The notes beneath the pieces were generated by a model, which was given only the letters and a program-made list of their open reading frames with translations, searched no databases and was not told the origin of the DNA. A stretch of DNA of 34,006 nucleotides from Kiritimatiellia bacterium. Lineage in GTDB: Bacteria; Verrucomicrobiota; Kiritimatiellia; JAQICX01. A program made the translations under genes and the position numbers. Positions within the stretch are counted from its first letter, which is position 1. Each line of letters begins with the position of its first letter. The stretch covers positions 1 through 34,006 of the forward strand of contig JAQICX010000082.1 in the NCBI GenBank assembly GCA_027858345.1. Reading direction: 5' to 3'. Positions 3,467 to 33,322 of the stretch are shown here, in pieces.

Positions 3467-3479
3467 TGAAAATATAATT

Positions 3480-3857: not shown

Positions 3858-4793
3858 ATGAAAAGAGTAGTAGTAATGATAATGATGGTGCTGGTTATAA
3901 CTGGCGTGTATGCTCAAGATATGTTCTCAACTAACATGTACCCAACTGCAATTTTTCCGTTTAATGAACGCGGTGCCGGTGTTAAAGGTTACGGCTCCAA
4001 GGTTAGCGACATTCTGTTTGCTCAACTAGTAATAGATCCTAAGCTTATCCTCGTTGATCGCGAAGAGATGAACAAAACTCTGGGTGAGCAAGAGCTGAAT
4101 ATTTCTGGCATGGTTAATTCTGCTCAAGCGGTACAGGTTGGCCAGCTAACGGGCGCAAAGCTTTTAATTACCGGGTCAGTAATTGAAGCGGACAAAACAA
4201 TCTATATTGTAGCTAAAATCATAGGAACAGAAACTTCACGCGTACTTGGAGAATCAGTAAAAGGCCGCACAACTGATGAACTTGGTCCTCTTGTAGAACA
4301 GTTGGCAGAAAAAGTCTCTGCTAAAATCAGCAAAGATGCCAACACACTTGTTGCAAAAGTTGAAACACATAAAGATCGTGTTGCAAAGCTTAACAAAGTC
4401 ATGGGGGATGCCAAGAGACCAACAGTTATTGTCTCAATCCAAGAACGCCATGTAGGTCAGACTACAATCGACCCTGCAGCCGAAACCGAAATTTCTTTAT
4501 TATGCAAAGAGACCGGATTTACAGTGCTTGATTCAGCTGCAGGCACAAAGGGAGCAGATATAATTATAAAGGGTGAAGGCTTCAGTGAATTTGCAATGCG
4601 CCGAGGAAATCTAGTGAGTGTTAAAGCAAGGCTGGAAGTCAAAGCCATTGATCCTGCCACAGACAAAGTCATCGCTATCGATCGCCAAGTTGCAGTAGAA
4701 GTCGACCTGACCGAACAGATTGCCGGCAAAAAAGCACTCCAGAAAGCTGCGGATATGATTGCTCAGCGTATGTTGCCAAAGTTGGTGAAATAA
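3858..4793 (+). CDS. CsgG/LpoB-like exported protein
   Basis: The 311-residue product has a signal peptide (MKRVVVMIMMVLVITGVYAQ) and a good ribosome-binding site (AGGAG near 3848). Residues about 28-160 form a CsgG/LpoB/TolB-N-like alpha/beta module. The strand TAIFPFNERGAG is followed by the family hallmark LILVDREEMNKTLGEQ and then LTGAKLLITGSV, matching the ER-x-x-L-x-x-LL-x-EQ and AD-x-x-I-x-GSI pattern of CsgG-family proteins. Residues about 185-311 look like a second, diverged copy (RPTVIVSIQERH, GADIIIKGEGFSEF). CsgG itself is the outer-membrane curli secretion pore; LpoB activates a peptidoglycan synthase. Here there is no lipobox, so the mature protein is probably periplasmic. It is the smallest member of the paralogous set in this window. 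Its leader is the repeat at 3480-3857. The function is not known. Confidence 0.83.
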   Translation: MKRVVVMIMMVLVITGVYAQDMFSTNMYPTAIFPFNERGAGVKGYGSKVSDILFAQLVIDPKLILVDREEMNKTLGEQELNISGMVNSAQAVQVGQLTGAKLLITGSVIEADKTIYIVAKIIGTETSRVLGESVKGRTTDELGPLVEQLAEKVSAKISKDANTLVAKVETHKDRVAKLNKVMGDAKRPTVIVSIQERHVGQTTIDPAAETEISLLCKETGFTVLDSAAGTKGADIIIKGEGFSEFAMRRGNLVSVKARLEVKAIDPATDKVIAIDRQVAVEVDLTEQIAGKKALQKAADMIAQRMLPKLVK

Positions 4794-4859
4794 CGTAAAA
4801 CTAATTCGTAGAATCGAAAGGGAAATGTAATGAACAGAATACTTGTTAAGGAGATTGAT

Positions 4860-5420
4860 ATGATAAAATTACTTGTTGGAACCGTTTTGGCCTTAGTTAT
4901 TGTCACAGTATGTGTCGCAGCTTGCCCTTCGGGGCTTTGCACGCTGCCTTCTACAACTACAACTACAACTAATACTACTACTACTACTACGGGGCTCTGT
5001 ATGCTGCCTGCTACTACTACTACTACGGGGACTCCCGTGATGCTAGATCTAAAAATCCAGTCGGCCTCTGCTGATGTAGGAGCAAAATCCACAATTCGAA
5101 TATCCAATGTTGGGGATTCACCGTACACGCTTTATGCATGCCCATCTATGACTTTGTGCTGTATTAAAGATTTACATATCATGCTTGGTTCGTCTGAAAC
5201 TGCTATATCTCTATTGGATGTATGTAAAGCTAAGAAACCAGTGCAACATGAAGTGTTTTTGCCTATCGGAGCGACTTTTGAATTTGATGTAACCATCCCA
5301 TCTGATTATTTTCCAGTAGGTTCAACTCAGCCAGGTGAGGCGCTTGTGATCCAACTTTGTTTAGAACTCACAGATGGCACGAGACTTTGCTCCGAAGCTA
5401 AGACAGCAAAACTTAAGTAG
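4860..5420 (+). CDS. Small lipoprotein with poly-threonine linker
   Basis: I prefer the ATG at 4860 (Shine-Dalgarno AAGGAG at about 4847-4852) over an in-frame ATG at 4830. It gives an ordinary lipoprotein signal peptide: MIKLLVGTVLALVIVTVCVAAC, lipobox VAAC, lipidated Cys at residue 22. The 186-residue protein then has two similar short cysteine motifs, GLCTLP and GLCMLP, each followed by a run of threonines coded by ACT/ACA triplet repeats. After that comes a beta-sandwich-like domain of about 130 residues (MLDLKIQSASADVGAKSTI...) with several cysteines (ACPSMTLCC, LDVC, LCLEL, RLCSEA). The threonine tract may be an extended, possibly glycosylated stalk holding the domain away from the membrane. 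No family is recognised. It follows the CsgG-like gene at 67 nt and may share its transcript. Confidence 0.82.
   Translation: MIKLLVGTVLALVIVTVCVAACPSGLCTLPSTTTTTTNTTTTTTGLCMLPATTTTTGTPVMLDLKIQSASADVGAKSTIRISNVGDSPYTLYACPSMTLCCIKDLHIMLGSSETAISLLDVCKAKKPVQHEVFLPIGATFEFDVTIPSDYFPVGSTQPGEALVIQLCLELTDGTRLCSEAKTAKLK
4951..5027 (+). repeat. ACT/ACA triplet microsatellites within the lipoprotein gene
   Basis: Two runs of ACT/ACA triplets (4951-4990 and 5011-5026) encode threonine runs and are separated by the GGGGCTCTG...CTGCCT segment, which repeats the GGGGCTTTG...CTGCCT segment before the first run. Slippage here would change the stalk length by whole residues without shifting the frame. Confidence 0.85.
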
Positions 5421-5519
5421 AGCTGTTGTGTTTTAAACATTGGATCTTTTGAGCTTACAATCACATGCTGCTAATGGGATAAAGTGTCTTTGACATATTA
5501 ACTGAAAAAAGGAGATATA

Positions 5520-5744
5520 GTGGTGCTTCAGCGACTTCCTAAATCGTCTTTAACTCCAAATCGGCGATACCTGATGTGGTTCCAATGTAAATATAGAGAT
5601 ATTCCCTCTCTAGTTGTTTCTCTTAATATTATTGATGAATACAAATCATACAGCGAGGTATTTCCAAGTATTTATACAACAGAAAACAACAAAATTATAC
5701 GCCTAGCGACTAATATAAAGCTTTGGAACAATATTGAATATTAA
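5520..5744 (+). CDS. Possible small hypothetical protein
   Basis: A 74-codon frame starts with GTG (5520), five bases after a good Shine-Dalgarno (AAAGGAGA, about 5508-5515). The translation (LPKSSLTPNRRYLMWFQC...) has no recognisable domain, signal peptide or repeat. The strong ribosome-binding site is the only support, and the region around it seems to be decaying, so this may be a gene fragment. Confidence 0.3.
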   Translation: MVLQRLPKSSLTPNRRYLMWFQCKYRDIPSLVVSLNIIDEYKSYSEVFPSIYTTENNKIIRLATNIKLWNNIEY

Positions 5745-5921
5745 CGTATTCTCATTCCGGAAATTAGCAATAAAAAGGTGGTTTGGCGACGGCATTGAAG
5801 CATAATGTTTTTATAATGCAATCGGCAGACAAGTTGTGGATTCCGCACATATCGCAACACGGGATACTTGAATCCCTCATTCAAGAAACCAACACAAAAC
5901 ACAAAATTATAAAGGAAAGAT

Positions 5922-5999
5922 GTGAACAAACTTATTGTTGGACGATTGCTGCTGCTTTGCTTATTGATGATTCAGTGCGGAGAAAATAATGATTTTTAG
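5922..5999 (+). CDS. 25-residue lipoprotein-like peptide or truncated lipoprotein
   Basis: A GTG at 5922 follows AAAGGAAAG (5911-5919) and opens a frame coding for MNKLIVGRLLLLCLLMIQC followed by GENNDF and a stop. It has the layout of a lipoprotein signal peptide: basic start, leucine-rich core, then a cysteine followed by polar residues. Gln at -1 of the Cys is not a classical lipobox residue. It is either a genuine tiny lipoprotein or the 5' end of a lipoprotein gene that lost its body. The latter fits the adjacent remnant at 6047. Confidence 0.4.
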   Translation: MNKLIVGRLLLLCLLMIQCGENNDF

Positions 6000-6046
6000 C
6001 TGTATGACTACAAATAAGGACAAACTAAACGCGATAAAGGCAACGA

Positions 6047-6109
6047 ATGAGTAAATTAATATCCAAAACGACAGAAGAAATCTCGTTTTTACAAAGAATT
6101 AAGAATTGA
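6047..6109 (+). pseudogene. Remnant of a paralogue of the gene at 12647; now an upstream mini-ORF
   Basis: A 20-codon frame (MSKLISKTTEEISFLQRIKN) ends in TGATG, its stop overlapping the start of the next gene by one base. The 74 bases from 6001 line up without a gap with 12601-12674, the leader and first codons (MNKSISKMTV) of the gene at 12647; by eye about 59 of 74 bases agree. The signal peptide body is gone here, and the TATAAT found at 12603 reads TATGAC. It is probably a truncated copy that now serves as a coupling leader for the gene at 6109. Confidence 0.55.
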
Positions 6110-7038
6110 TGAAACCATATAGATTGAGTATAGCTTTTGTCCTGATTCTGACTTGTCTCGTTCCGAGATGGGCTCATGCCCGTCCGGAAAAGCTTACTGT
6201 GACGGTTGTGCCGTTCACAGCGTACGGCGCTTCATATGCCGACCGTCAGCAAGCACTGGGTTTCTCTGAACTCATGTTGACGAAGTTCTTGGGCAGTTCC
6301 AGTTCTGACTTTGAATGGGTTGATCGTGAAATGCTTCCTTCTGTCAAGAGGGAGCTGGAGCTTGATTCAGGCAGTATAATGGGGGGCAGGTCGTCTCTTG
6401 CTATGGGGGAGTTTGCGCAGTGCGACTTGGTGGTGTCCGGTAGTTTTTCAGGCGGGGGCAAAGATGGATGGTGTCTGACCATCGAAATTATTGAACCACG
6501 ACATGCCGACCTTATTGTCAGTCGAAAACTTGACATATCACGCACAAGCGGAGCCAATCTTAGGCTGACAGATAAGGATGTCGAGAGCGCACGTCTACTT
6601 GTGCTGGAGGCATTGTCAGAGGCTCGTCTCACGTTGAAAAGAATTAAAGACAGAATCGTCATTGCCCCACTTTTGTTTCAAAATGAGATGCCTGGAACCA
6701 GGCTGGATTTTTTTGCAGCCGACATACGTAGTGGTTTCCTTGATAGGAGATATGATGCCAAATCAGTCCGGTTTACGACTCTTCCGCGAGCCTCGCAGTC
6801 GATAGGAGAGATAGATCTTTCCTTGCTGGGATTTACACAAAGTACGACCAATGCCCTCGACCTTGCTGATATCTATGTTTGGGGGACTTACTCAGAGGTC
6901 TACACGCAGGGTGTAGCATTTGCAGAGGTGCCAGTTGTTGCGACCATTACGCTTTGGGATGGTGCAGATGGACATCAAGTGTTCGCTGTGACCAACACTG
7001 CGGGGGGGGGGTACTACGATGGTTCAGCAGATTGTTGA
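6109..7038 (+). CDS. CsgG-like/propeller protein, N-terminal part (frame broken at a G run)
   Basis: The ATG at 6109 overlaps the upstream mini-ORF stop (TGATG). A signal peptide (MKPYRLSIAFVLILTCLVPRWAHA) is followed by a CsgG/TolB-N-like module at about 30-150 (KLTVTVVPFTAYG, FEWVDREMLPSVKREL, CDLVVSGSFSGGG) and a second module from about 185 (RIVIAPLLFQNEMPG, DIYVWGTYSEVY). The second module lines up with the paralogue at 9178 (VFIAPLFFSNKSEE, DYYVWGFYKEQY). Translation runs through ten G residues (7002-7011) and stops at 7038. In the paralogue the protein continues (NVYQLIIHAAMNS), and the matching sequence here (MVQQIVDKTIEHG) lies in the next frame from 7019. One G fewer would restore a fused product of about 1,020 residues. 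So this is the 5' part of a frameshifted or phase-switched gene, or the shift is a sequencing error. Confidence 0.75.
   Translation: MKPYRLSIAFVLILTCLVPRWAHARPEKLTVTVVPFTAYGASYADRQQALGFSELMLTKFLGSSSSDFEWVDREMLPSVKRELELDSGSIMGGRSSLAMGEFAQCDLVVSGSFSGGGKDGWCLTIEIIEPRHADLIVSRKLDISRTSGANLRLTDKDVESARLLVLEALSEARLTLKRIKDRIVIAPLLFQNEMPGTRLDFFAADIRSGFLDRRYDAKSVRFTTLPRASQSIGEIDLSLLGFTQSTTNALDLADIYVWGTYSEVYTQGVAFAEVPVVATITLWDGADGHQVFAVTNTAGGGYYDGSADC
7002..7011 (+). other. Ten-G homopolymer at the frameshift point
   Basis: Ten consecutive G follow ...AACACTGC and precede TACTACGATGG. With nine G the frames of 6109-7038 and 7019-9178 become one. Runs of this length mutate readily by slippage and are a classic site both for phase variation and for assembly error. 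Confidence 0.85.
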
Positions 7039-9178
7039 TAAGACGATTGAGCATGGCAGTCGTATGCCCGAAGATAAGAATGTAGATACCAACGTACGCC
7101 GCCGGATGGCACATAGTATGAGAACGTATGCAAGAAAGACACAGGATCTCATTATTAATACTGAGGATTTATGGAACTTTCAATCCGCGACTTGGCTTCA
7201 GCGGTGGAAGAATGCAGTGGATCTTTTGGCGGTTGCATCATTTGTGGATCCAACCAACGAGGAACTTCGCTTTGAACTGCTATTTGAGTACTCTCGCGTT
7301 GACATTTTAAGTAGCTATTCGACTCGAGATTATTGGACCTTCTCATGGCTGTTGGAGAAAGCTCAACTATGGAGCGAGTTTTGTGATGAATTTGGCTGCG
7401 AATGGGAGATGCCAAGCTGCATTTATCGGGACTGGATTTATGCGAATGATCTGCGTCATCGTGGATTGAGAACTTCGGGTTCAATATGTTTAAGGTCACT
7501 GGAAAATCTACGGAATAGTCTAGCTGATGCCCAAAACGGCCTGCCGGATGATGTTCGAGAGGCTCTTCTTGCTCAGACTGAACTAGACATTGCCAAGAAG
7601 AGTATTGCATTTACTAAAGAAACTCGATTTAAGAGGGGGCGGCTCATTAAGGATCCCTTGTCGGGATCCAAGCAGTCCAAGACAAGCAATGTAACCAATA
7701 AAATATGTGTTGCGAAGCGGGAGAGCTCCGAGTCGGAACGAAAGGGAGACCACTTTCCTCTTTCTACCAATGAAGCGATAATCATACACGAGCCGGCTCA
7801 ACCACCCACTGTTCAGGTTTCTTATGACAATGTCTCTTTTCTGAGGGATTTCTTTGTGCGAGAAGTAGAGAGCATCAGCGCAGATCATGGTCGCCTCTGG
7901 GTCTGCGTTGTAGGACAAAAATTATCAACGGTTAATGGTGCTGTTACCTACCTGTATGACCCATCCACAGATGTTTTGGCACGTTTGTCGAAACTCTATG
8001 GCAGGCATTCAATGCCGACATCGGTATCTGCCGGGAACAGTACCGTTTGGATGGGCTTTGATGGTGATGGCTTGTGGGAAGTAGATGCATCTTCTTTAAT
8101 TCCTACAAGGCACTGTATGCGAGATGGACTTGTTACCTCTCACATATCGTGTTTGGATGATACGGAAGACAACGTTTTCGTTGCTGGTAAGTCGAGTTGT
8201 GGCTACTGGATTGGAGTACTTAATAAGAAAAGTGGTGAATGGAGCCACTACAGATCACCTATGGACGGGGAGACCAAGCCTGTGCAAGTGACGTCAATAG
8301 CTGCGAACCAGAAATTGCTTGCTGTTTACTGTAAAAGTATATGGTCTACCGGATATGATATTCTTCTATGCCGCCTAGGCGATGGAGCATGGTTCGATGT
8401 GTTGGATACACTTCAAGAGCGGTATCCTAAAGTTTTTCCGGAACGCCGCTCTCTATCCTCAAAGGTAGTGGCTGTAGATGACTGGAGTGCATGGCTTCTT
8501 TCCGGCGACTATCTAGTCAAAGTGTCTGGATTGACGGGGGAGTTGGAGCAGTGTCTTCGCATGCCTAACCACCCAACATCAGTAATTACAGATGGTGATT
8601 ATTTCTGGATTGCCTGTTTCGATGGCAGGAACAATCCGACTATGGCAGTGAAAGTGTATTTGTTGCATAGACCGTCGATGAGTTTTTGTGCGGAGTTTTC
8701 AGTTGAGATGGGTGGGGTTGTCCAGTCAATGTGCCGTGAAGGCGGGCAGCTTTGGCTTGGTCAGGGAGGAGCTGTACACTCAAAGTTGAACGGCTGGAAG
8801 CATACTCTGGTGCATGCTGATGTGTCAAAGGTTCCTGGTTACGCCGATCAGATTCCACCATGGCAGAAATCAGAAGTTGTTACCAGTCGTGTCCGGTCTC
8901 TTGCAGACAGAGGAGCACTCCGCGACAAGTTTGTGGGTACATGGTTGTGTAATGGCATTGTCGAGGAACTCAATTCAGATGGGAGTTTTGTAGCGAAACG
9001 GGGAGGAAAACAGATTTCTACTGGCCGCTGGGAGATAGAGGGGCAGAATATCGTATGGTATTCAGGCAAGAGTAAAGACAGCAATCCTATCCTGACCATA
9101 ACTGAAGATACGTTTGTGCTTATGGAAATGAATCAGACTATTACTCGCCACATCCGAAAAGATCCAAGGGGGAAGTGA
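7019..9178 (+). CDS. CsgG-like/propeller protein, C-terminal part with lipocalin-like end
   Basis: This is the second piece of the gene broken at the G run. It has no signal peptide and no ribosome-binding site of its own. Its first residues (MVQQIVDKTIEH) continue the paralogue alignment, so translation alone is unlikely unless the frame is switched. Residues about 1-190 are helical (RRRMAHSMRTYARKTQ, VDLLAVASFVDPTNEELRFELL) and parallel the repeat-rich middle of the 9178 protein. After a charged linker, about 265-620 is a beta-propeller of the two-component-regulator/Kelch style (TVWMGFDGDGLWEVD, RDGLVTSHISCLDD, GQLWLGQGGAV). Residues about 630-715 (FVGTWLCNGIVEELNSDGSF, GRWEIEGQNIVWYSG) resemble lipocalin-like beta-barrel domains. 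The stop overlaps the next start (TGATG). Confidence 0.75.
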   Translation: MVQQIVDKTIEHGSRMPEDKNVDTNVRRRMAHSMRTYARKTQDLIINTEDLWNFQSATWLQRWKNAVDLLAVASFVDPTNEELRFELLFEYSRVDILSSYSTRDYWTFSWLLEKAQLWSEFCDEFGCEWEMPSCIYRDWIYANDLRHRGLRTSGSICLRSLENLRNSLADAQNGLPDDVREALLAQTELDIAKKSIAFTKETRFKRGRLIKDPLSGSKQSKTSNVTNKICVAKRESSESERKGDHFPLSTNEAIIIHEPAQPPTVQVSYDNVSFLRDFFVREVESISADHGRLWVCVVGQKLSTVNGAVTYLYDPSTDVLARLSKLYGRHSMPTSVSAGNSTVWMGFDGDGLWEVDASSLIPTRHCMRDGLVTSHISCLDDTEDNVFVAGKSSCGYWIGVLNKKSGEWSHYRSPMDGETKPVQVTSIAANQKLLAVYCKSIWSTGYDILLCRLGDGAWFDVLDTLQERYPKVFPERRSLSSKVVAVDDWSAWLLSGDYLVKVSGLTGELEQCLRMPNHPTSVITDGDYFWIACFDGRNNPTMAVKVYLLHRPSMSFCAEFSVEMGGVVQSMCREGGQLWLGQGGAVHSKLNGWKHTLVHADVSKVPGYADQIPPWQKSEVVTSRVRSLADRGALRDKFVGTWLCNGIVEELNSDGSFVAKRGGKQISTGRWEIEGQNIVWYSGKSKDSNPILTITEDTFVLMEMNQTITRHIRKDPRGK

Positions 9179-12100
9179 TGAACATGAATATATTTAAAAC
9201 AATATCAATTTTGATATGTTGTCTGGTCTGCGCAAGCTCGGCGGTCGCGACATCAAATAAAGCCCCTGCTGCGGAAATGTTGAGTAGAAAACCGACTGCA
9301 GTGGTGGCATTAGCGCCTTTATGGTCAGAAGATGATTCTTCGCCATGTGTGAGTGCCGCCCACCGTTTTACAGACATTCTTTATGCCGAACTGTTCAATT
9401 ATCCAGATGTAGAGTGTGTTGATCGAGCAAATATAGATCAAGCAATAAAGGAGTTGTTTCAATTGAGTGTTTCTAGTGAGCGTGGTACGTCTCTCAAGGT
9501 TGGCCACTGGGTTGAGGCTGATATTCTAATTCAAGGAGGCATTACTTTTGCAGAGAAGGAAGAAGACGGCCGAGTTTTAGTTCTAGAAGTTATAGACTTG
9601 TCGCGAGCAGAGTTACTTGCCTCAACACGAATACCTATACAACAGCACAAGCAAGAAATCCATAATACCAATGTACATCAAAATCCAGCATCAACTATAG
9701 TGATTACATCTCCTCGTGGTCCTGTGAAATATATGTATTCTATTGATAACAACATACTACTTGCATCGTTTAACGAAATCATCTCTAAAGCTATTGAGAT
9801 GCGTAAAAGTAGTAGCGGAAAAGTATTTATTGCTCCACTTTTCTTTAGCAACAAATCAGAGGAAACAGAGCGACTTGATTTCGCAGAAAGAGATTTGCTG
9901 GATGCCTTTGCTGCGGAGAACAAAAAACAGGCACAAATACATTTTATGAGCTTATCGAGTGCTGCCTCTGCTACCGAAGAACATAGTCTTGCTCTCAGTG
10001 GTCTTGTTGATGCAGAGTCAGATGAGTGGCGAGGTTTGGCTGATTATTATGTTTGGGGTTTTTACAAGGAACAATATCAATCGAAAATCCCTTTTGAGAA
10101 GGTTACAGTGAAATTTACCATCTTTACGTGGGATGGTATGTCGGCGCCAAAATCATTTTCTTTTGAAGAGCGGGTTGGCAATCTTGCAAACGTTTACCAA
10201 CTTATTATTCATGCAGCAATGAACTCTATCGGTCATGACAAGGAAAATTCTGCATACTCTGATGAGTTGAGGAAGACTGTTGCGGATAGCTTGTTTCTGC
10301 AAGCTAGGCTTGATATTGATAATGCCTTCCTCGATAAAAACCACCGTGAGGGGGCAGCAATAAACGATAACATGAAAAGTCAACACAGAAGAATCCTTAG
10401 GATGCTAGAAACTGCTCATTTTTTCTATCCGGAGAGCGATGTTATCGCTCGTGAACTGCTAATTGAGAAGTATAATAGAGTATTCTTGTCCGACAAGTCA
10501 CATTGGGCTCGAAACTACAAATGGGATCAAATCCATATCAATCAGGCTCGAGACTGGATAAAATATGCAGATTGCTATGGGTTCGCTTTTGATATTCCAT
10601 ACATGCCGATAATCAAGGGTAAAAAAATCCGTGATGAGCGAATATTTCCGTATGAAGGCGGAAGAATCTATTTTGAAAATTACATGCGTCTATCTGGTCA
10701 AACGTGGCCAGCAAATAATTATTACTCGTCTTTATCCTCTCATGAAAAGAATGTATACAGGGAAAATTGGAGTCGTCAATATATTGACAGTCTAGAAAGG
10801 GTATTCAATGACAAGGAGTTAACAGATTGGATTCCTGTAGCTAGACTCTGGTTTGGACGCTCCTTAGCAGACATTGACCCAAAGCAACGTGTTCGTTTTC
10901 TGGATATTGTTTCTTCTCATATATTCGAGAATGACACAGACAACTGTTGGAGCAAAAATTTGCCTGTAATAAAGCAGGCCTACAAGAGTCTTGGTGTGCT
11001 TGAACGTATGCCGGTTATGCAAACAAAATCTTTCAGTTCTCTACGTACTAAAACAGAGAAGCAAGTAGATATTAAGAGCACTCATACAAAGAAAGCTTCT
11101 TCATCCGGTGCAAAGAGAAGGTTTAGGTTTTATGCTCCGGAGTGTTTGCCTCCCAGTCTGAATGTGAATATGCGCAGTTTGCCTTTGGATAAATTTTGCA
11201 AACCAAAACAATGTTCGACAATGGCCTTCCTCCAAGGGCAGCTCTACTTCAGTACAGGGAACACGACTGAGTGGTCTTCTGGTTATCAATCCAAAGTCGG
11301 TTGCTACAATCCAATGACTGGTTCTTTGCAAAGCTTGACAGAGAAATTAGGTGTGAAATCGCATATAAAATCAATACAATGTAGTGATAATCGAATATGG
11401 TTTCTAGGCCCTTCAGATGGTGCGGTAACCTTAAAACCATCACGTCATTTCACGTTTCGTGATGGACTACCCACAATGCATATTGAGTGTAGTACACTCA
11501 TGAATGGGCGTATTTATGTTGGTGGTGGCAAGACACAGGCTGCTTGTGGTTATTATGACGCCGAACAAGATAGCTGGTTGGATCTGAAAGTGCCTCTGAT
11601 AAGAAAGCTTGCAGGCAAGCTGTTGCCTCCGGCTCCTATCACAGTCATGGGTTCGTTTGATGATTGTCTTCTTATCTATGGTGGTAACATTGAGCGGTCT
11701 GACTCATTTGGACGTTATGATTCTCGTGCAGAAAACGATACTTCTGCATATTTGTATTTATATAACTGTCGTTCCGGGATCTGGAGTGATGTTGGACTAA
11801 AACTATTCAATGATTCAAAATTGTTAAGATGGAATGGGTGGCATAAGCAGTTTGAACCATTTATGAAAGTAACATCAATTAAGTCTGACCAGACTGGTTT
11901 TTGGATTGGAAGTCATGATGGTTTAGTCCATTATAATCCGCATCTTGATGTAGTCAGAGCTTGGATGCCAGCCCACAATTTACTCATTGATGAATCTAAC
12001 CCCTTGTTTGCGAAAAGGCAGGAGTACTTCCTCATGCGGAGTCAGAACAATTCTGACTATCGAGATGCTGTTCCAATCACTCGTCTTGCAGGAAAAATTA

Positions 12101-12519: not shown

Positions 12520-12579
12520 ACGTAATTAGACTATGGATAAAGCCCGTATAATGAACATAATTAAAACCATCGAAGTTGA

Positions 12580-12608
12580 TTGAGAAATATTACATTAAGA
12601 TGTATAAT
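12580..12608 (+). promoter_or_regulatory. Probable sigma-70 promoter for the 12647 operon
   Basis: TTGAGA (12580-12585), a 17-base spacer and a perfect TATAAT (12603-12608) lie 38 bases before the ATG at 12647, with the gene's AAAGGA ribosome-binding site in between. In the matching decayed leader at 6001 the -10 is changed to TATGAC. The spacing and both boxes are close to consensus; no experiment supports it. Confidence 0.65.
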
Positions 12609-12646
12609 TACAAATTAAGACAACCTAAAAACAATAAAGGAAAAGC

Positions 12647-15444: not shown

Positions 15445-15547
15445 TACCGAAAGTTAAACAAGTGTTGTTGTGTGAAGAATTAAATATTGTGATTTGCTCG
15501 AAAGAAGTTATTAGTAATAGTTATCTAAAATAAAGGATATGTATATA

Positions 15548-18500
15548 ATGCGTATATTAATGTTTATTGGATTAGTACTTTTGTATTGTCCATCTATCTG
15601 CAGCTCAGAGCCTGTTGATGAAAGTGTTGAACCAATGTTGTCTCAATCAGAACAAGCTACCAAATTTCTTAATGAATGCCTGACAAAGAACAGAGATGTT
15701 ATACATCTTACAGGTTTGGCGTCTCTTGATGTAATGGGAATATATGGTGTTGAAGATATTCCAGAAGGAATTACTCCAGCTCTAATTATCAAGGCAATGA
15801 CAGAACACCCAGATAAAGTTGTTAAAATTTATGGCAATATCGGACAGTTGCGAGCCTTAGCTTTGAATAAGAAAGTACCTCTTTCTGAAGTTGGTGTTTC
15901 TGCTAAGGAAAGAATCAATGATATTTTGAAATTATATCTTTCAGGAAATAAACAGGTAATTACTGCTGCGGTTGTCATGTTGAATATTGTTCCAATGGAA
16001 ACAGACGATCGTGATAAGATGACGATGTATGTTGTGAGACAACTTCTGAAAAACGGCAAACTAAATGAAAAATTATTCATGAAGTTTGCTTTTCTTATGA
16101 GTTCAAACACGATGCAAGAGGGAGCTATCAGGCAGGAGTGGGTGACGTTGTTAGATGATATTTCGAATGACTACAAGAAAAAGTCAAAGTCTGTTCCGGC
16201 ATTTGTACAAAAACTTATTCATAATCAGAAAATGCTGGGTGCGCAAACCTGTCGTATTGACGTTCCATGGAATAAAGTTGAGTGTCTGTTTGAAGTCCAA
16301 GATAGAGTTGTGGATATCCTTGTATATGACGATTATGCATTGATGGTATGTAATGGTTATGATCAGGTGAGTAGTTATAGTAGATTGATTACAGTTCCAT
16401 TTGATAAAGCAAAAAAACCGATTGTAGGGCAACGAATTAATGTAAAAGTTAGTTACTCCTGCAACTCTTGCTCCTCAAGTGATACACAGAATTGCTATGT
16501 TGCAACTCAATCTGGGTTGGTTATACTTCCTTTACACGGTAACTCGGCCAAAATATTGAACGAAGAGAATGGATTACCTGGGAACAAGGTTGCATTTGTG
16601 GTGCCAATCGGAGACAACATTCTCCTAAATGTTCACAATGAAGGCTCAAACCTTTTATTGTATAATATACATACTGGAGAGATCAAGATGCTTGCATCTA
16701 CCTTACGGCGTGAAAAAAAGAATATTTTAGATTATCAAGAGTTTGCGATAGACTATTGCTCATTAGACCAAGATGGCAAAGGAGTGCGTCTTTGGACTCG
16801 AGATTTTGTGATGTTTCAAGGAGGTAAGCGCATTTCTGTTAAAAAGAAGTTATTCCATTATGACTTTGATTCTGGAAATGTTGTTAAACTAGAATATACC
16901 AATCCTCAGCAAAGCGATACTATATATAGATCTAATCAGATATATCCTGATAGAGAAATCCAAGTGGGGAACGACAAGTGGTGTTCTACCTGGAGGGACC
17001 AAAAAGGCCCAGAGACTTATCCTTTACAAATCGAAAAACCGGATGGCACTATTGTATTCCTTCCTCCGGTTATAGAAGGATTTGATAGAATAACTCCGAT
17101 TGCACTAGTTGACTCGGGAAATGCTGTTCTGGTAACCCGTTTCCTTTTGGATACGTACGCATATGGACCTAGAAGGATACTTCTATTACACCTAAAAGAT
17201 GAAGTCATAAGAGATATAGAGAAAGATCGCTTGAAACAAGCTGAAGATATTATCCTCAAGGAAGAAAGTGCATCTAAAGAAGAGCTTAATAACTCTAGTG
17301 ATAAGGGTAATGCAAATAATAAGACTGCCAGAATAGAAGAAGTCAACCATACGGTTGAGAAGGTTGCGATTATTGATGCAACACTTCAAGAAAATAGCCT
17401 AAGTTCTCAATTCAGAGATATGTTTTTAACAGAGTTGTCAAAGCCAAATGGATTACAGTTTGTAAAGTATACACCTTTTGATAGCAAAGCAACCAAAGAA
17501 GCACTTTCTGCCGTATCAGGATACACACCAACTCTTCAGAATTATAAAGATTTGGGGCAAGTTTGTAGTAATGCTAACGCGGTGATAGTTATCGAATTCC
17601 TCGAACATAATAAGTCTCAAATTAATGATAAATACGCTGCAATAAGAATTCAGCTTCTTGATTGCCGTTATGGCTTCAAGGTGACCGATAGAGTTATATA
17701 TACACCTCTGTCTGCACCTGAATTGCAAAAGGTTGCCAAGGATTTGGCAACTATATATTCTCGTAAAATACGTAAACTCGATAAGTTCCCAGAATCTACA
17801 AAATTAGTTAGATTCAACAGCCTCACAACCGATGAAAAATCAAATAATAAACATTGGATAGGGTGGGCTGCTGTATTGTATCTTGACACCCTCTATTTAA
17901 ATAATGTTGATTCTTTAGTGATTGAGCGGGATCGGATGTCTTTTTCATTGATAGAGAGCCTGATTGAAGATAAAGTTCCTGCAATACTTCGTGATTCAAT
18001 ATTAAGTTTTGGTATAAGTATATATTCCCAGAAAACAGAAAAAAACAAGTACTATTACACTTTTATGTTGAATTCTTTAAATGAAAAAAGCGATAAAGTT
18101 TTTTATATGCCATTCTACAACGGCATTAATTTGAACTCAAATGCATCAAGTATGGCACGTTATCTCAAGCTAAAAAACAACATAACAGAATCTATCAAAG
18201 CTGAGCTGAGGTTGATGTCTATACAGGCTAAATGTTTTGAACAGGCAGGAGAATATGACAAAGCACTGGCCGTCGTTGAAGTGCTGCTTACTTTTGACCC
18301 TGAAAGCTATCTATATAAGTTACAACGAGATAAATTATATACAGATGTGAGCCACAATGAAGAGCTTGACAACTTGAATTATAAGACTGCTGGAATACAA
18401 GAAGTCAAGCATGGACAAGAGACGCCCCAACAACTGAAGTCGCTAAATGTGCAGGGCGAGATGATGAAAGTTGCGATTATTGATCCAACTCTTCAAGAAA

Positions 18501-18571
18501 CAGTCCAACCTCACAATTTAGAGATTATCTCATTGAAGAATTATCAAATACTAAGGGAATGCAGATTGTAG
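15548..18571 (+). CDS. Exported propeller/CsgG-like protein, N-terminal part (frame broken)
   Basis: The ATG at 15548 sits ten bases after AAAGGA; the in-frame ATG at 15539 is too close to it. A signal peptide (MRILMFIGLVLLYCPSICSS) precedes a helical region (about 25-230, HEAT-like in feel), a beta-propeller (about 235-560: NGLPGNKVAFVVPIGDNILL, EGSNLLLYNIHTGEIKML) and a charged linker. A CsgG-like module of the family follows (about 595-930: VEKVAIIDATLQEN, VCSNANAVIVIEFLEH, VDSLVIERDRM). A second copy of the linker and module begins at about 937 (MMKVAIIDPTLQE). Within it, between about 18501 and 18511, one base is missing relative to copy 1. The frame then runs into NLEIISLKNYQILRECRL and stops. 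The rest of the module lies in the next frame to 19473. The unbroken gene would code for about 1,310 residues. Confidence 0.78.
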   Translation: MRILMFIGLVLLYCPSICSSEPVDESVEPMLSQSEQATKFLNECLTKNRDVIHLTGLASLDVMGIYGVEDIPEGITPALIIKAMTEHPDKVVKIYGNIGQLRALALNKKVPLSEVGVSAKERINDILKLYLSGNKQVITAAVVMLNIVPMETDDRDKMTMYVVRQLLKNGKLNEKLFMKFAFLMSSNTMQEGAIRQEWVTLLDDISNDYKKKSKSVPAFVQKLIHNQKMLGAQTCRIDVPWNKVECLFEVQDRVVDILVYDDYALMVCNGYDQVSSYSRLITVPFDKAKKPIVGQRINVKVSYSCNSCSSSDTQNCYVATQSGLVILPLHGNSAKILNEENGLPGNKVAFVVPIGDNILLNVHNEGSNLLLYNIHTGEIKMLASTLRREKKNILDYQEFAIDYCSLDQDGKGVRLWTRDFVMFQGGKRISVKKKLFHYDFDSGNVVKLEYTNPQQSDTIYRSNQIYPDREIQVGNDKWCSTWRDQKGPETYPLQIEKPDGTIVFLPPVIEGFDRITPIALVDSGNAVLVTRFLLDTYAYGPRRILLLHLKDEVIRDIEKDRLKQAEDIILKEESASKEELNNSSDKGNANNKTARIEEVNHTVEKVAIIDATLQENSLSSQFRDMFLTELSKPNGLQFVKYTPFDSKATKEALSAVSGYTPTLQNYKDLGQVCSNANAVIVIEFLEHNKSQINDKYAAIRIQLLDCRYGFKVTDRVIYTPLSAPELQKVAKDLATIYSRKIRKLDKFPESTKLVRFNSLTTDEKSNNKHWIGWAAVLYLDTLYLNNVDSLVIERDRMSFSLIESLIEDKVPAILRDSILSFGISIYSQKTEKNKYYYTFMLNSLNEKSDKVFYMPFYNGINLNSNASSMARYLKLKNNITESIKAELRLMSIQAKCFEQAGEYDKALAVVEVLLTFDPESYLYKLQRDKLYTDVSHNEELDNLNYKTAGIQEVKHGQETPQQLKSLNVQGEMMKVAIIDPTLQETVQPHNLEIISLKNYQILRECRL

Positions 18572-19470
18572 ATCAGTCATTCTTAGCGGGAACAGTAAAT
18601 AAAGAAGCATTATCCGTAGTACCTTGGGTATCACCTGGTTGCCAGAGTTACAGAAGTCTCGGTAAACTTTGCAATGTTGATGTTATAATGTCAGTTGAAT
18701 TTTTGAACAACCAAAAGTCTGAAACCACCAATGCATACGCTGCAATAAGATTTCAGCTTATAGATTGCCGTTATGGCTTCAAAGTGGTCGACAGGGTGTT
18801 CTATTCTCCTCTTAATCAATCGGAACTGAAAAAAACTGCTAAAGATTTAGCGATTATATATTCAAGTAAGATCAGTAAACTCAATAAATTCTCTGAATCT
18901 ACAAAATTAATTAAATTCAAAAAAGTCATCACCGATGAAAAAACAAAGAATAAACGTTGGGCAGGATGGGCTGCGGCATCGTATCTTGACACTCTCTATT
19001 TAGAAGATGTTGATTGCTTGGTACTTGAGCGGGATCGTATGGCCGGTTATGAAACAGATAGCCTGGCTAAAGATAAATTTTCAGGAGCACCTTTCGGATC
19101 AATTATTACGGTTGGGATAAGTATGTCTTACAGAAAAGCTGGCCACGGAGAATATGATGACACTTTGGTCGTAGGTATTTCTAAATCAGGTAGCGGTAGA
19201 TCTTTAGGACTGGGGTTGGGGAAGGATGTTAACTTTTTCTCGAAATCATCAAGTCTTGCAGGTCTAGCCAGGCTAAAGGCCGACATAACCGAAGCAGGGC
19301 AGTCCAAAATGCGGTTGATGTCCACACAGGCAACATATTTCGAACAGGCAAAAGAATATGATAAAGCACTATCCCTTATCGAAACACTGGTTGCTCTTGA
19401 CCCTAAAAACTCCATATATAAAGAACGACGTGATAAAATATATAAAGATTTTAGTTCGAAGAACGAAGAA
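17279..19470 (+). repeat. Intragenic tandem duplication of a 1.1-kb module
   Basis: Unit 1 (about 17279-18358) and unit 2 (about 18359-19470) follow head to tail. Both start with an EEL[ND]N...K-T-A-x-I-x-E-V linker and run through K-VAIID-TLQE, LxDCRYGFKV-DRV, GWAA-xYLDTLYL, LV-ERDRM and a final TPR-like AxCFEQAGEYDKAL / ATYFEQAKEYDKAL, ending in YTDVS / YKDFS. Unit 2 carries a one-base deletion near 18501-18511. Confidence 0.85.
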
Positions 19471-19473
19471 TGA
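18559..19473 (+). CDS. Second CsgG-like module, 3' part separated by a one-base deletion
   Basis: The frame opens at an ATG at 18559, but the homology extends upstream of it: the same frame reads QFRDYLIEELSNTKG, matching QFRDMFLTELSKPNG of copy 1. There is no ribosome-binding site or signal peptide, so it is best read as the tail of the gene at 15548. It carries LCNVDVIMSVEFLNN, LIDCRYGFKVVDRVFYSP, GWAAASYLDTLYLEDVDCLV, LERDRMAGYETDS and a TPR-like end (ATYFEQAKEYDKALSLIETL). An independent 304-residue cytoplasmic product is possible by reinitiation, since the upstream stop at 18571 lies 12 bases inside this frame's start, but I consider it less likely. Confidence 0.72.
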   Translation: MQIVDQSFLAGTVNKEALSVVPWVSPGCQSYRSLGKLCNVDVIMSVEFLNNQKSETTNAYAAIRFQLIDCRYGFKVVDRVFYSPLNQSELKKTAKDLAIIYSSKISKLNKFSESTKLIKFKKVITDEKTKNKRWAGWAAASYLDTLYLEDVDCLVLERDRMAGYETDSLAKDKFSGAPFGSIITVGISMSYRKAGHGEYDDTLVVGISKSGSGRSLGLGLGKDVNFFSKSSSLAGLARLKADITEAGQSKMRLMSTQATYFEQAKEYDKALSLIETLVALDPKNSIYKERRDKIYKDFSSKNEE

Positions 19474-19583
19474 GCATCTCTATATTTAGAGATGAAAGTT
19501 TATGTTGTATGGGAAATAGGAGCAAAACAGACTTTTTAAATCAATAGAAACAACTTAATATAACTACGAAGCATTACAAGAAC

Positions 19584-22500
19584 ATGAATATATTTAAAAC
19601 AATCTTAATTTTGATATGTTGTCTGGTCTGCGCAAGTCCTGCAATTGCTACCACAAATGAAAGTCCAACAGTGGCGGTTATTTATCCTCAGGCTGTCGGC
19701 ACGGAGGGGACGATATATTCTCTGATTGAATCACGCCTTGTAGAATCATCTGAATATGAATTTGTTGAGCGTGAAAGTATTCGTAGAGTTCTTTCTGAAC
19801 AGCGTTCAGCTCTGGGCGGAATGACCAGAGGTAAAGATAGTATTGCTCTTGGCAAGCTGATTTCAGCAGATATTTTGATATCATGCTCTCTCATATCGGC
19901 GGTAAGTCAGGAGAGTAACGAACCACTCTGTATTCATGTTCAGGTATTTGAGGTTGCCAGTTCTCTTAAACTGGTTGATGCAATGGTCTCTGTTACTGAT
20001 TTTGGTGATATTGACTATGTTGTTGCAAGTTCTGTTGAACTGGTGAAAAAAGGCATGTTGAAATTTCCTTGTCGTGCAACAGGCATCAAACGGGTGGCTG
20101 TTTTGGATGTGGCTTGTGAAACGTGGAATCGCAATCTTTTTCCGCAGGCACAGGCTTATATCAATTTGCTGGAAAGTATCCTTATAGAATCGCCGGACAT
20201 AGCCCTTCTAAGCAGAAAAGAGCTGGGATCAACTCTTTTAGAACGTTTTATAGAACATCAACCGCCTCCACTTGGAGCGGATATTACAATCGAAACAGAA
20301 ATGCGGAGAACACCTGATGGAAAGAGTTTGTTAAAAACCAGATTTAGCGGTCAAGATGTGCAAACTGTTCAGGATGTGAAGTTTGAGACTCTGGATAGAA
20401 CCATAGTGCTCAAACAGGCAAAACAAATTTTGACATCCCTACAAGTTCAGGCAGGTGAAGATTATAATGAATCTGATTTGCAGGAAGAGGCAAAACGTCT
20501 GTTTATACGTGCCTATGTGTTAACTCGCAAACACGACTTTGAGCAAGCTTATAAGCTGGCGCAAGCAGCATGCGTACTTGATCCTAAATCTTTGAATGCC
20601 AGAAGACTTAGTGAACGATTGTATGCCAAGTTGGTTGCAGCGTCATTTAACAAATGGAGCAAACTAAGCGATGAAACAAAAAATACCATAGGAGAAGAGG
20701 CTCGTTGGTATATGGACGATTATTATACTAGGTTGATGGCATGCTACCGTGATAATGATTCAAACATTTTGGGAACAGTAGAATTTCTTAAAATGGGTGC
20801 ATTGGAGGGTGGATACGAATTAGGACCCGAGCAATTCGAACTATCAAATCTCAATCAATTGCCGGCATTGGCTGAGTTACACAAAGAAAAGCGGTTTCAA
20901 CTGTGCCGTACTTACAAAGAGGTGATGGAGAAAAGTGGTGACGCTCGAATGAGACATAGACCTCGCGGTGAAAAGTATTTCGGCCCACCGCTACTCTACA
21001 TCTATATGGAGCTTCTCAATGATGACAGAGAGTTGTTCAAGACAGCTCGCACTTACTTTTCACAAGAGAGCGGTACATATCAATGGAACAACCCCGGTGC
21101 GGTCTATGTTAAAGGATATTCCACTTTGTTTTATCTTCCTCCTGATATAATTGTGAAAAGGTTTCTTGATGGTCGTTCCCAGGATTGGCAGCTCCTTGAT
21201 GAATTTATTACTTGGCTGAATAGCCTTCACACACCACTTGCTGACTTTTGGTCGGCTCGGATCATCGATCAATTGTGGAACAAGCTTCCTTCGCATATAA
21301 CAGCAGATTGCAGTCGTCAAAAAATCCAACAACAATGCCTGCAATCGTTAATAAAGATTGCTGGTGGATTAAATGAGGATGGTGCCATTGGTCGTCAGTA
21401 TCTTGAAAAAAGCATGGTACTCTCTCGGGGCGGACGTAATTTGTGGAACCTTGCAGACGTTGACTCACTGCAAGAGTGCTGGGTTGTAGCCAAAGGGTAC
21501 AATAAGACCTGTCGAGCTGTTGTTGCCTCAAAAATACTGCCACTGCTGCGAAAACATAATGCAAATGAGCAAATTATTGATATTGCATCTGAAGCCCTCA
21601 AAGATATTTCTCCTGGTCAAAAAGAATATAATATCATTCTTTCAGCTCTTATCGCTGCTGAAAAAAAACTGGGAGTGATTACTACAAATCCGCCAATTTG
21701 GGACAAAGCCGTTTTACTTATGGATACAGCCAACAGAAAAACATTAAAGAGTCCATTTTGGCAAAGCTTTACGCTATGCGATAACAGTGTGTTTTTATGT
21801 GACACCAGAAACTCAGAGATTCTGCGTATCAACCTTGCTACAGGACAAACCGAACAGTTTTCTTTCGCAGATCTGAAATTACCATTCAAAGGATCAAGAC
21901 ATTGGCATAAAGGTGTTGTACAAGATGTCGGTCTGGTTTGTGCAGGACGTTTTTGGCAACCTCTTCAGACAGGACTGCTTTCCATAGATCTTGAATCAGG
22001 AGACTCTCGCGTATACAACAGCACAAATGGACTTTTTGCCGATCAGGTGACTTCCATCTGTTCTGTAGGTGAAAAAATTTATGGAATCTCACGGGGAACC
22101 ACGTCAGCAGAGTGGAATTGGCGCAACTTTGCCGGCGGCGGACCATTTGTTCTATTTGAACTGGATCCTGCAAATGATAAAATACGCAATATAGATGGTT
22201 CGGGCATGGGAGAGGGGAGACTGGCGGGATCTACAACTGTATCCATCAATGGACTTCTTGGAGATGAAGAGCGGAATGGACTGTGGGTAATGGAAACATG
22301 GTGGACTCTTGGTTTTCCTCATTTCTACGACATCAAAAATGACACCTGGACGAGGATTAGAATTAATGCTTTTGACTGGCAGCAGATAAAAGCTTGTAAG
22401 GCTGCACTTGTTGCTCAGCCTAAAGGGATGCTCTTTGGTTCATACCTATATAACCCTGATATCGATTCTTTCTCATATCTGCCATACTTCAGTGCATCAT

Positions 22501-23720
22501 CAAACAATAGTAATGTAACTCCCCGTATAGATATTTCTCTGCCAATGACCGAATGGCGAGGTCAAGTTTGGGGCGTTAGCCATGATGGCAGACTTTCTCG
22601 TGTCTCCGCAGATGGTTCTAATACAGAATACGGAACTTCATTTGTCGAAAATGGCTTAAATATTTTTCAGATTATGCCTTCTGCCAAACAGCTTGCGGTT
22701 ATTGCAACTGATAGTCAGAAATCAAGAATTCAGGTTTGGAGTATTGATCCGTTAGCATCGCCGGAAACTACTCAAAAAAGAGAGGGAAATTCTTATTGTG
22801 CCACTCAGGTAGTGGAACAGGCAAAGTCTGGAACACCGCTTTCAGGGTTATCTTTGCCGGATATGATGTCGGTTGACTCCGCCTCAATCCCCAATATTGA
22901 AGGTCTGGCTCCTGGAAGCAAAGATGCGCAGCTTCGACAACTGGCATATTGCCATTCTTCGGGATTGCCTGTAGAAACCGTTAATCAAACCAAGATACGC
23001 TTTCGCCTGATTCCGCCTGGTTCTTTCACCATGGGAAGCCAACGTGCATACGCTCATTATGCCATGTGGCGATCTTCAGAACATAAAGTCACTCTTACCA
23101 AACCTATATATGTCAGTAGCACTGAAATTACACAGGGTGAATGGGAAACTATTATGGGAAGTAATCCTGTTCGTTTGGGGCCTATAGGCAATAATCTTCC
23201 TGTAGAGGAAGTGAATTGGTCCGAATGTCAGGAATTTTTGAAGCGACTTTGTAAAGCCGAAGGGGTACCGCAAGGTTCCTACCGAATGCTAACCGAAGCT
23301 GAATGGGAGTATGCGTGCAGAGCCGGCACAGATACTTTCTCTTGTTTTGGCGATAACCTTACACGTAAACAGGCAAATATGCGAATTCCACACGGCATAT
23401 ATCCTGACATACTGGAACCACGAATTACAGAGAGTATTACTCCTTTGCCCGTAGCAAGTTTTGCCCCTAATGCTTGGGGTTTATACGATATGCACGGTAG
23501 CGTGGAAGAGTGGTGCGAGGACAAATATCATTGGACGTATGATCGTGCTCCTTGTATAAACCCAATTCAGACCTCAAAAGGATGGCGTAGAGTATCACGT
23601 GGCGGAAGCAGATATTCAGACGACATGAAATGTTCGTCGTTTTATTGTGAAGAGGCTCTGATTTCATCAGATGTTAAAGCCAGAGGCTTCGGATTTAGAA
23701 TTGTAAGAATAATTGAATGA
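19584..23720 (+). CDS. Giant exported CsgG-like/propeller protein with SUMF1 (FGE-like) domain
   Basis: The 1,378-residue product is the longest in the window. Its signal peptide (MNIFKTILILICCLVCAS) is almost identical in bases to that of the 9178 gene. CsgG-like module 1 is at about 28-140 (TVAVIYPQAVGTEG, YEFVERESIRRVLSEQ, ADILISCSLISA) and module 2 at about 168-290 (VAVLDVACETWNRN, IALLSRKELGSTLLER). TPR-like helices (about 303-350, HDFEQAYKLAQAACVLDPKS), a long helical middle and a beta-propeller (about 715-1075) follow. Residues about 1137-1378 are a SUMF1/formylglycine-generating-enzyme-like domain: IPPGSFTMGSQ, EITQGEWETIMGSNP, LPVEEVNWSECQEF, YRMLTEAEWEYACRAGT, NAWGLYDMHGSVEEWCED, RRVSRGGSR and GFGFRIVR. 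A C-x4-C pair (CSSFYC) sits where FGE enzymes carry their copper-binding cysteines. However, most SUMF1 proteins are not sulfatase activators, so the activity is open. Confidence 0.88.
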   Translation: MNIFKTILILICCLVCASPAIATTNESPTVAVIYPQAVGTEGTIYSLIESRLVESSEYEFVERESIRRVLSEQRSALGGMTRGKDSIALGKLISADILISCSLISAVSQESNEPLCIHVQVFEVASSLKLVDAMVSVTDFGDIDYVVASSVELVKKGMLKFPCRATGIKRVAVLDVACETWNRNLFPQAQAYINLLESILIESPDIALLSRKELGSTLLERFIEHQPPPLGADITIETEMRRTPDGKSLLKTRFSGQDVQTVQDVKFETLDRTIVLKQAKQILTSLQVQAGEDYNESDLQEEAKRLFIRAYVLTRKHDFEQAYKLAQAACVLDPKSLNARRLSERLYAKLVAASFNKWSKLSDETKNTIGEEARWYMDDYYTRLMACYRDNDSNILGTVEFLKMGALEGGYELGPEQFELSNLNQLPALAELHKEKRFQLCRTYKEVMEKSGDARMRHRPRGEKYFGPPLLYIYMELLNDDRELFKTARTYFSQESGTYQWNNPGAVYVKGYSTLFYLPPDIIVKRFLDGRSQDWQLLDEFITWLNSLHTPLADFWSARIIDQLWNKLPSHITADCSRQKIQQQCLQSLIKIAGGLNEDGAIGRQYLEKSMVLSRGGRNLWNLADVDSLQECWVVAKGYNKTCRAVVASKILPLLRKHNANEQIIDIASEALKDISPGQKEYNIILSALIAAEKKLGVITTNPPIWDKAVLLMDTANRKTLKSPFWQSFTLCDNSVFLCDTRNSEILRINLATGQTEQFSFADLKLPFKGSRHWHKGVVQDVGLVCAGRFWQPLQTGLLSIDLESGDSRVYNSTNGLFADQVTSICSVGEKIYGISRGTTSAEWNWRNFAGGGPFVLFELDPANDKIRNIDGSGMGEGRLAGSTTVSINGLLGDEERNGLWVMETWWTLGFPHFYDIKNDTWTRIRINAFDWQQIKACKAALVAQPKGMLFGSYLYNPDIDSFSYLPYFSASSNNSNVTPRIDISLPMTEWRGQVWGVSHDGRLSRVSADGSNTEYGTSFVENGLNIFQIMPSAKQLAVIATDSQKSRIQVWSIDPLASPETTQKREGNSYCATQVVEQAKSGTPLSGLSLPDMMSVDSASIPNIEGLAPGSKDAQLRQLAYCHSSGLPVETVNQTKIRFRLIPPGSFTMGSQRAYAHYAMWRSSEHKVTLTKPIYVSSTEITQGEWETIMGSNPVRLGPIGNNLPVEEVNWSECQEFLKRLCKAEGVPQGSYRMLTEAEWEYACRAGTDTFSCFGDNLTRKQANMRIPHGIYPDILEPRITESITPLPVASFAPNAWGLYDMHGSVEEWCEDKYHWTYDRAPCINPIQTSKGWRRVSRGGSRYSDDMKCSSFYCEEALISSDVKARGFGFRIVRIIE

Positions 23721-33059: not shown

Positions 33060-33085
33060 AGATTTCAGATGGTAGATGTTTGCTC

Positions 33086-33114
33086 TTGTGTAATTCAACT
33101 AAATTATGTATTAT
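33086..33114 (+). promoter_or_regulatory. Possible promoter of the nucleotidyltransferase toxin-antitoxin operon
   Basis: TTGTGT (33086-33091), a 17-base spacer and TATTAT (33109-33114). The ATG of the first gene is at 33122, so transcription would start at or within a base or two of it, giving a leaderless message. The -35 box is weak. Confidence 0.4.
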
Positions 33115-33121
33115 CTTTAAT

Positions 33122-33319: not shown

Positions 33320-33322
33320 TTT

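Follow-up and report, generated by a model that had tools for sequence, protein, structure and literature searches.

What does a bacterium gain from a row of very large proteins, predicted to be exported, that share one front module and differ in their ends? The question is raised by contig JAQICX010000082.1 of a Kiritimatiellia bacterium (assembly GCA_027858345.1); the window analysed here is this entire contig of 34,006 bases, from a 4.03 Mb assembly of 256 contigs. An initial annotation had described, between positions 3858 and 23720, an array of proteins with a CsgG-like front module and interchangeable C-terminal ends, and had taken it for a diversifying envelope or secretion system. The array really starts upstream of 3858, at 1181, with the gene of an extracytoplasmic function (ECF) sigma factor, and its genes form a set that recurs in the same order in other phyla, with homologous modules, a promoter motif and swapped ends. 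We tentatively favour, at slightly less than even confidence, a reading in which the large members (hereafter giants) serve in the periplasm as outsized adaptors of TolB type whose heads can be exchanged, within a conserved set headed by the sigma factor. The main rivals of this adaptor reading take the giants for sensors, or the array for an outer-membrane ring.

The array and its shared front module

The genes, named here by their first position, all lie on the forward strand in the order ECF sigma factor, putative anti-sigma factor, 351-residue protein 2411, 311-residue core protein and then five giants over 18 kb (6106/7019, 9175, 13534, 15539/18559 and 19584). Folds and export are predicted throughout.

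1132–1159, +: ECF-type promoter CAAAGA-N16-GTCTTA, beginning 49 bp upstream of the sigma gene and agreeing with the consensus at 11 of 12 positions
1181–1729, +: ECF sigma factor (Sigma70_r2 1.3e-16, Sigma70_r4_2 3.7e-7)
1732–2463, +: putative membrane anti-sigma factor, one transmembrane segment (residues 50–81), no profile match
2411–3466, +: protein of no known family (351 residues), leader or transmembrane segment at residues 19–37, directly upstream of the core gene
3858–4793, +: core protein (311 residues), signal peptide, predicted TolB-N-like domain (25–160) and CsgG/PelC-like domain (169–311)
4830–5420, +: small protein within the array, leader and Thr-rich stretch
6106–7038, +: tandem modules, apparent first piece of a split giant, matching residues 8–283 of a giant from a relative (L071)
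7019–9178, +: helical part and propeller, apparent second piece of the 6106 giant, matching residues 308–425 and 645–940 of the L071 giant
9175–12519, +: giant with signal peptide, two modules (the second seen in the structure model, not by the module profile), helical part and propeller
9180–9261, +: export leader, DNA 85% identical to 19580–19661 over 82 bases
12647–13537, +: protein within the array, leader, no known Pfam family
13534–15444, +: signal peptide, two modules, helical part (our reading) and ankyrin end, from Pfam and profiles
15539–18571, +: giant in reversed order, helical part and propeller before the module pair, running into a frame break
18559–19473, +: second copy of the 15539 module pair, past the frame break (17612–17911 against 18715–19014, 77%)
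19580–19661, +: export leader common to 9180–9261
19584–23720, +: giant with signal peptide, two modules, helical part, propeller and FGE/SUMF1 end, from Pfam and profiles

Two giants look like single genes split by a frame change: 6106/7019, because its pieces match consecutive parts of one intact relative (L071), and 15539/18559, because 18559 matches the module pair of 15539. All four were treated as separate pieces. The putative anti-sigma gene has the right position for an ECF operon and encodes one transmembrane segment, as do 29 of 30 of its homologues, and no family matched it in profiles. Neither Pfam nor NCBIfam matches the 2411 family above cut-off; matches short of significance hint at a front part resembling a beta-sandwich and a rear part resembling DUF4350. 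A domain common to 2411 and the anti-sigma factor found no support (0.2%).

The CsgG-like module that had been placed behind the signal peptide is real. Pfam CsgG is matched above cut-off (20.8 bits) by 3858 (1.9e-9), 13534 (1.6e-6) and 19584 (5.3e-5), with partial coverage of the profile (in 3858, positions 35–102 of 210 only); 6106 matches weakly (0.19), and 9175 has no Pfam CsgG match. A module profile of 30 rows, seeded with four window genes, recovers these seeds from the genome (13534, 7.1e-30; 19584, 7.6e-29; 6106, 9.5e-26; 9175, 1.1e-24) together with two window genes that are not seeds, 3858 (5.4e-18) and 18559 (2.1e-6). Elsewhere in the genome the profile finds two genes: that on contig C186 matches CsgG over almost the full length (1.4e-35), and that on contig C229 we read as LpoB-like. 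None of the eight profiles used in the locus scan, one of them a counterpart of the module profile, matched reversed sequence at E 0.01. The helix motif pointed out earlier also holds, its Arg, as well as a Glu nine residues later, being invariant in 30/30 module rows, and the modules reported near the C-terminus of the sixth gene are indeed there, since 15539 carries its helical part and propeller first and its modules last.

Contig C229 also holds a second cluster (locus L008, 1466–7587), in which two genes with CsgG-type matches above cut-off, one of them LpoB-like in our reading, are accompanied by a small lipoprotein and by two further proteins, whose ends are PEGA-like and FGE-like, respectively.

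A profile iterated from five window modules found 86 proteins of at least 550 residues in the window and in 80 loci fetched from other genomes. Removal of three window proteins and of three core-gene fusions (core-like score of at least 150) left 80 giants, nine of which are cut by a contig end. Two modules lie within the first 420 residues of 70 of 83 giants, these being the 80 and three from the window, so that the doubling of the module first noticed in several window genes is the usual state. In profile comparison both giant modules share homology with the first domain of the core (99.3% and 97.7%).

Recurrence of the gene set and of its promoter

When named genomes were scanned using only the core alignment, 118 relatives were confirmed, and the 80 loci kept come from 28 Planctomycetota, 15 Verrucomicrobiota, 12 Lentisphaerota, 8 Kiritimatiellota, 2 Thermodesulfobacteriota, 1 Pseudomonadota (Gilvimarinus), 1 Omnitrophota and 13 records without a phylum in the title. 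Carriers in culture include Gilvimarinus sp. 2_MG-2023, Aeoliella straminimaris, Rhodopirellula sp. SM50 and JC639, and Kiritimatiellaeota bacterium B1221, the last with the sigma pair at its locus. Neighbours were counted in a six-frame run over loci with enough flank, a greedy gene caller having missed overlapping genes. A 2411-type gene lies just upstream of the core gene in 73 of 75 loci, an anti-sigma-type gene in 42 of 68 and an ECF gene in 39 of 63. Same-strand giants occur within 9 kb in 43 of 55 loci (one in 24, two in 16, three in 3), a count that leaves out the opposite-strand giants of L107 and L129. The window, with five giants in 18 kb, is richer than any of the 80 loci within 9 kb. 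Some loci share a genome (L072 with L091, L087 with L095) and are therefore not all independent. By clustering of the greedy gene calls, the next commonest family is present in 12 loci, and the members inspected are antisense frames over the core gene.

The same association is found within the class. Among 57 class genomes, 13 have a strong core orthologue (E ≤ 1e-80), at 14 loci, and at all 14 a module-bearing frame of at least 900 residues lies within 20 kb of the core gene. Such frames number 31 in the class, 25 of them adjoining a strong core gene, and they are present in 3 of the 44 genomes without a strong core; G006, which belongs to these 44, carries a weaker core-like gene (9e-13) on a contig of 3 kb. 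Arrays thus exist in related genomes, and the family members are not scattered singly.

Core and giants also occur together in one Gilvimarinus record and two Desulfobacteria records (L117, L118 and L127); on the module tree L117 and L127 have sister giants (100), which suggests transfer. Class relatives hold another recurrent set, of small module-bearing genes beside large module-bearing proteins (L062, L064/L065, L066 and L067), and in Verrucomicrobia extra core-like genes of 300 residues may stand beside the core gene (L143, also L133 and L139); L143 has five of these extra genes, and no giant was found there.

A two-box motif is common to the upstream regions of 45 sigma genes: one exact pair is present in 10 of them, against at most 3 in 20 shuffles. 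The motif CAAAGA-N15/17-GTCTAA, a consensus read from the same 45 regions in which it was counted, agrees at 11 or 12 of 12 positions in 22 of them, against 0.1 expected in shuffles. With a matrix built from 29 other loci, the window excluded, the site at 1132 scores 20.8 bits and the next window site 12.5. The 80 loci contain 52 sites of at least 15.5 bits, 36 of them at sigma genes (training sites included); shuffled sequence yielded no sites in 297,562 bases. The other 16 comprise four that lie 34–67 bp before giants (L075, L085, L094 and L126), one before a core gene (L074), two before 2411-type genes (L115 and L143), two before anti-sigma genes (L120 and L134) and seven elsewhere, one of these inside a giant. 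In a span from 160 bp upstream to 60 bp downstream of the start, sites of at least 15 bits are found at 4 of 71 complete giants, compared with 3 of 465 genes that do not belong to the set (p 0.007); among giants heading a unit there are 2 of 7, against 0 of 164. In other genomes, then, the motif links giants to the sigma factor, on small numbers. The functional link that the initial annotation had supposed between these genes has gained a conserved gene set and a shared promoter motif, while the function itself is still presumed.

A regulon in the rest of this genome did not emerge. The genome has 54 matches with at most one mismatch, against 83 for the reversed pattern, and so does not look enriched. 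Besides the window site there is a single exact match (L154, 19.6 bits), within an open frame; among the 30 matches fetched, those of L168, L156 and L161 (16.2–18.9 bits) lie within long frames, and that of L159 (15.6 bits) about 90 bp before a frame of 156 residues.

Linkage to a sigma factor could also mean that the giants are sensors, whose ends bind periplasmic ligands and signal through the 2411 protein to the anti-sigma factor, the array widening the range of cues. We regard this as unlikely, if the more serious of the rivals. It is favoured by the frequent presence of the sigma/anti-sigma pair, by the Foldseek matches of the 9175 model, which include the periplasmic propeller sensor BT4663, and by recognised ends that are mostly binding folds, with no toxin domain among the families listed. 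However, the giants mostly follow the sigma pair and four of them carry the sigma promoter, as outputs do, and the core gene lacks a nearby sigma gene in 24 of 63 loci.

Exchange and conservation of the ends

The FGE end of 19584 (3e-32) and the ankyrin end of 13534 (5e-11) are clear, and the propellers of 9175, 7019, 15539 and 19584 are tied together by profile, that of 9175 being supported by the structure model as well. The ends assigned in the initial annotation are thus borne out for FGE, ankyrin and propellers; the lipocalin-like end of 7019 was seen only below cut-off (0.058). Three window-propeller profiles together reach 57 of 80 giants, in their middle to rear part, and miss 23, of which 5 are cut by a contig end. 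These profiles came from single-seed iteration, which worked for three seeds and not for 19584 alone; one profile from four aligned window seeds was without success. Judged by these matches, the propeller family is the default end of the giants.

Pfam was run over 43 and a further 37 giants, the families listed being 25 of 50 and 19 of 19, respectively. It gave FGE in 2 and 3 giants (our own FGE profile adds a sixth row only if 19584 is counted), ankyrin, WD40-type, FG-GAP and HEAT in 2 each, and EF-hand, Kelch, PQQ and Reg_prop in 1 each. Toxin domains were found neither in the window genes nor among the families so listed for relatives. One giant (L049/L069) ends in a ThuA/DUF4350-like part below cut-off. 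The idea that this end represents the 2411 family, which would have made it a Rosetta-stone fusion, was rejected: the 2411 profile does not match that protein, and the six-frame run shows a separate 2411-type gene in L069.

A tree was built from 82 module regions; it leaves out two giants that have no module within their first 420 residues, and 6106 is labelled 'propeller' by hand, since 7019 has one. End types change at least 16 times on it, against 27.9 when shuffled, which means that they are also clustered. Three changes are required for FGE, all forced by starred branches, and three for ankyrin, two of them so forced. A change may be a gain or a loss; support is weak at 30 of the 79 inner branches, and the class 'other' includes cut genes. 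The window giants do not all group together: 6106 and 9175 branch with L071 and L138 (97), and 13534 and 19584 with propeller giants of Kiritimatiellota and Planctomycetota (94, unstarred; 19584 on a long branch). Ends and module order do get exchanged, to judge from the changes on the tree, from the leader DNA common to 9175 and 19584, a likeness that stops with the signal peptide, and from the reversed order of 15539. The early picture of one front module with different ends therefore applies to giants of the window and of relatives alike.

The word 'diversifying' fares less well. Median identity is 33% for modules and 27% for ends, a mild difference, with modules ahead of ends in 176 of 201 pairs. 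In the closest pairs, modules and ends are equally conserved (95/95% for L126/L129, 82/84% for 9175/P0002 and 80/83% for L123/L125). With ends that keep pace with modules in close relatives, and one propeller family in most giants, we see no sign of fast diversification in these comparisons. P0002, 85% identical to 9175, lies on a 42,362-base contig of another assembly; in a large protein database 9175 had 2 homologues, then 4 with an alignment (itself included).

These data also bear on ordinary expansion, in which old paralogues with unrelated jobs would stand together through tandem duplication alone. The module superfamily is widespread, 6 of the 31 large module-bearing frames of the class have no strong core gene nearby, two of five window giants are split, and within the window no array member other than the sigma gene has the promoter, all of which would suit such an origin. 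Yet the same neighbours recur in the same order across phyla, the promoter motif is shared, and the window giants fall on at least two branches of the module tree (97; 94 unstarred), which argues for selection on the set and not for local duplication alone. We therefore consider this explanation improbable.

Core fold, known systems and possible function

The predicted fold of the core protein is closest to the TolB N-domain in its first domain and CsgG/PelC-like in its second, in keeping with the CsgG/TolB-N type proposed at the outset. CsgG contributes two transmembrane beta-hairpins per subunit. The core model has no such pore hairpins, its strands 235–249, 252–265 and 270–283 being joined by short turns, and its second domain has 143 residues, compared with about 224 in CsgG (30–253). 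The window core lacks a lipobox, and among 64 core genes 49 have a leader without one, 4 a lipobox-like leader and 11 no clear leader; a lipobox is present in 4 of 71 complete giants. An outer-membrane apparatus for secretion or assembly, its CsgG- or PelC-like ring built from the core and its gates or cargo supplied by the giants, could draw on the Pfam CsgG matches of three window genes and on the fold of the second core domain. The missing hairpins, the short second domain, the rarity of lipoboxes and the lack of a recurrent cargo gene in the loci leave it only a slim chance, and a secretion pore is likewise unsupported.

By the tests run, the array is not a member of CsgG, FlgT or the polymorphic toxins. 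For FlgT, FliF is absent from this genome and from the 13 core-bearing class genomes; within the class, FliF_C occurs in 3 of 57 genomes, none of them with the core. For toxins, no toxin ends were seen in window genes or in the families listed for relatives. Membership in TolB fails by sequence profile, whereas the predicted fold agrees. The likeness to TolB lies in the N-domain fold of the core and in the propeller that follows such a domain in giants (in the 9175 model and, by profile, in the 57 counted above); the core protein itself has no propeller. In contrast to TolB, the giants usually have two modules, about 600–1700 residues, a helical insert and exchangeable ends, and are linked to a sigma factor, up to several per locus. 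LpoB, PelC and PqiC-type DUF330 proteins belong to the same predicted fold group as the core but are small (targets 133–175 residues long), while the modules described here are joined in tandem to large ends. In the MafA/MafB islands of Neisseria (PMC7738311), variable partner genes accompany an outer-membrane protein that is oligomeric and has been likened to CsgG; the partners there are toxins, whereas here the partners themselves carry the CsgG-like module. PorZ and PorK/GldK of type IX secretion offer common folds, with GldK below the family cut-off; no other part of that system was searched for. ECF regions 2 and 4 and a promoter of its own make the head of the array resemble an ECF sigma/anti-sigma operon. 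As for phage defence, PADLOC on 10 window proteins matches only 13534, through its ankyrin part, and 29844, which does not belong to the array. Each part has a known fold, and the system as a set is undescribed in the open-licence literature searched; an account in subscription journals is possible.

TolB, FlgT, PelC and CsgG dock with their partners or rings. On the adaptor reading, for which we infer docking, ligands and signal, an envelope signal would free the sigma factor from the anti-sigma factor. The freed factor would switch on its own operon from the CAAAGA-N16-GTCTAA promoter, together with, in some genomes, giants that have their own copy of it. Core and giants would then dock on one partner, or on each other, via the shared module, and each end would bind a different envelope ligand, mostly by a propeller and in some giants by ankyrin, FGE, WD40, HEAT, EF-hand or FG-GAP domains.

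Several observations weigh against this reading. The second core domain has no detectable sequence kinship to the second module of the giants (12% in profile comparison). Pfam TolB_N has no match in this genome (E 0.01) or in the window genes (E 1), so that the predicted fold is what supports kinship to TolB. The model of 9175 has modest confidence (predicted local distance difference test score 63, 8 rows), and TolB is not among the matches listed for it, a list that the propeller fills. Besides the 24 loci without a nearby ECF gene, 12 of 55 have no same-strand giant. Splitting of two of the five window giants means that the array may be decaying or that the assembly has errors. Within the window the promoter motif precedes the sigma gene only, the gaps 3467–3857 and 5421–6105 could hold other promoters, and no convincing further copy was found elsewhere in this genome (30 of 54 matches scored); for the window, therefore, sigma control of the genes behind 3858 is something we infer.

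Less probable than the adaptor reading is a wider proposal: an envelope machine of the Planctomycetes–Verrucomicrobia–Chlamydiae (PVC) bacteria and a few other phyla, with one sigma switch, a hub of TolB/CsgG fold and plug-in giants that dock on this hub by their tandem module and exchange their heads (propeller, ankyrin, FGE, WD40, EF-hand or HEAT). If it were true, a lineage could retool envelope binding by changing ends only. PVC bacteria have unusual envelopes and many large exported proteins without an assigned job. The use of the TolB/CsgG/LpoB fold group as a plug for exchangeable heads would also be new to the literature searched, and a five-part set with its own promoter, spanning Kiritimatiellota and Planctomycetota and partly present in an isolate of Gilvimarinus, offers a defined entry point for experiments.

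No RNA families and no tRNA were found. In the remainder of the window, a thioredoxin-like protein (23957–25954), whose middle part we read as esterase-like, lies just after the array. Further on, 29844–31217 encodes a Schlafen AlbA_2 and RecG-C-type HATPase protein with a Fic-like C-terminal domain, to which PADLOC matches part of pAgo-type models. At 33080–33772 a small frame is followed by a nucleotidyltransferase-like gene, with below-cut-off matches that include AbiEii; the two could be a toxin–antitoxin pair.

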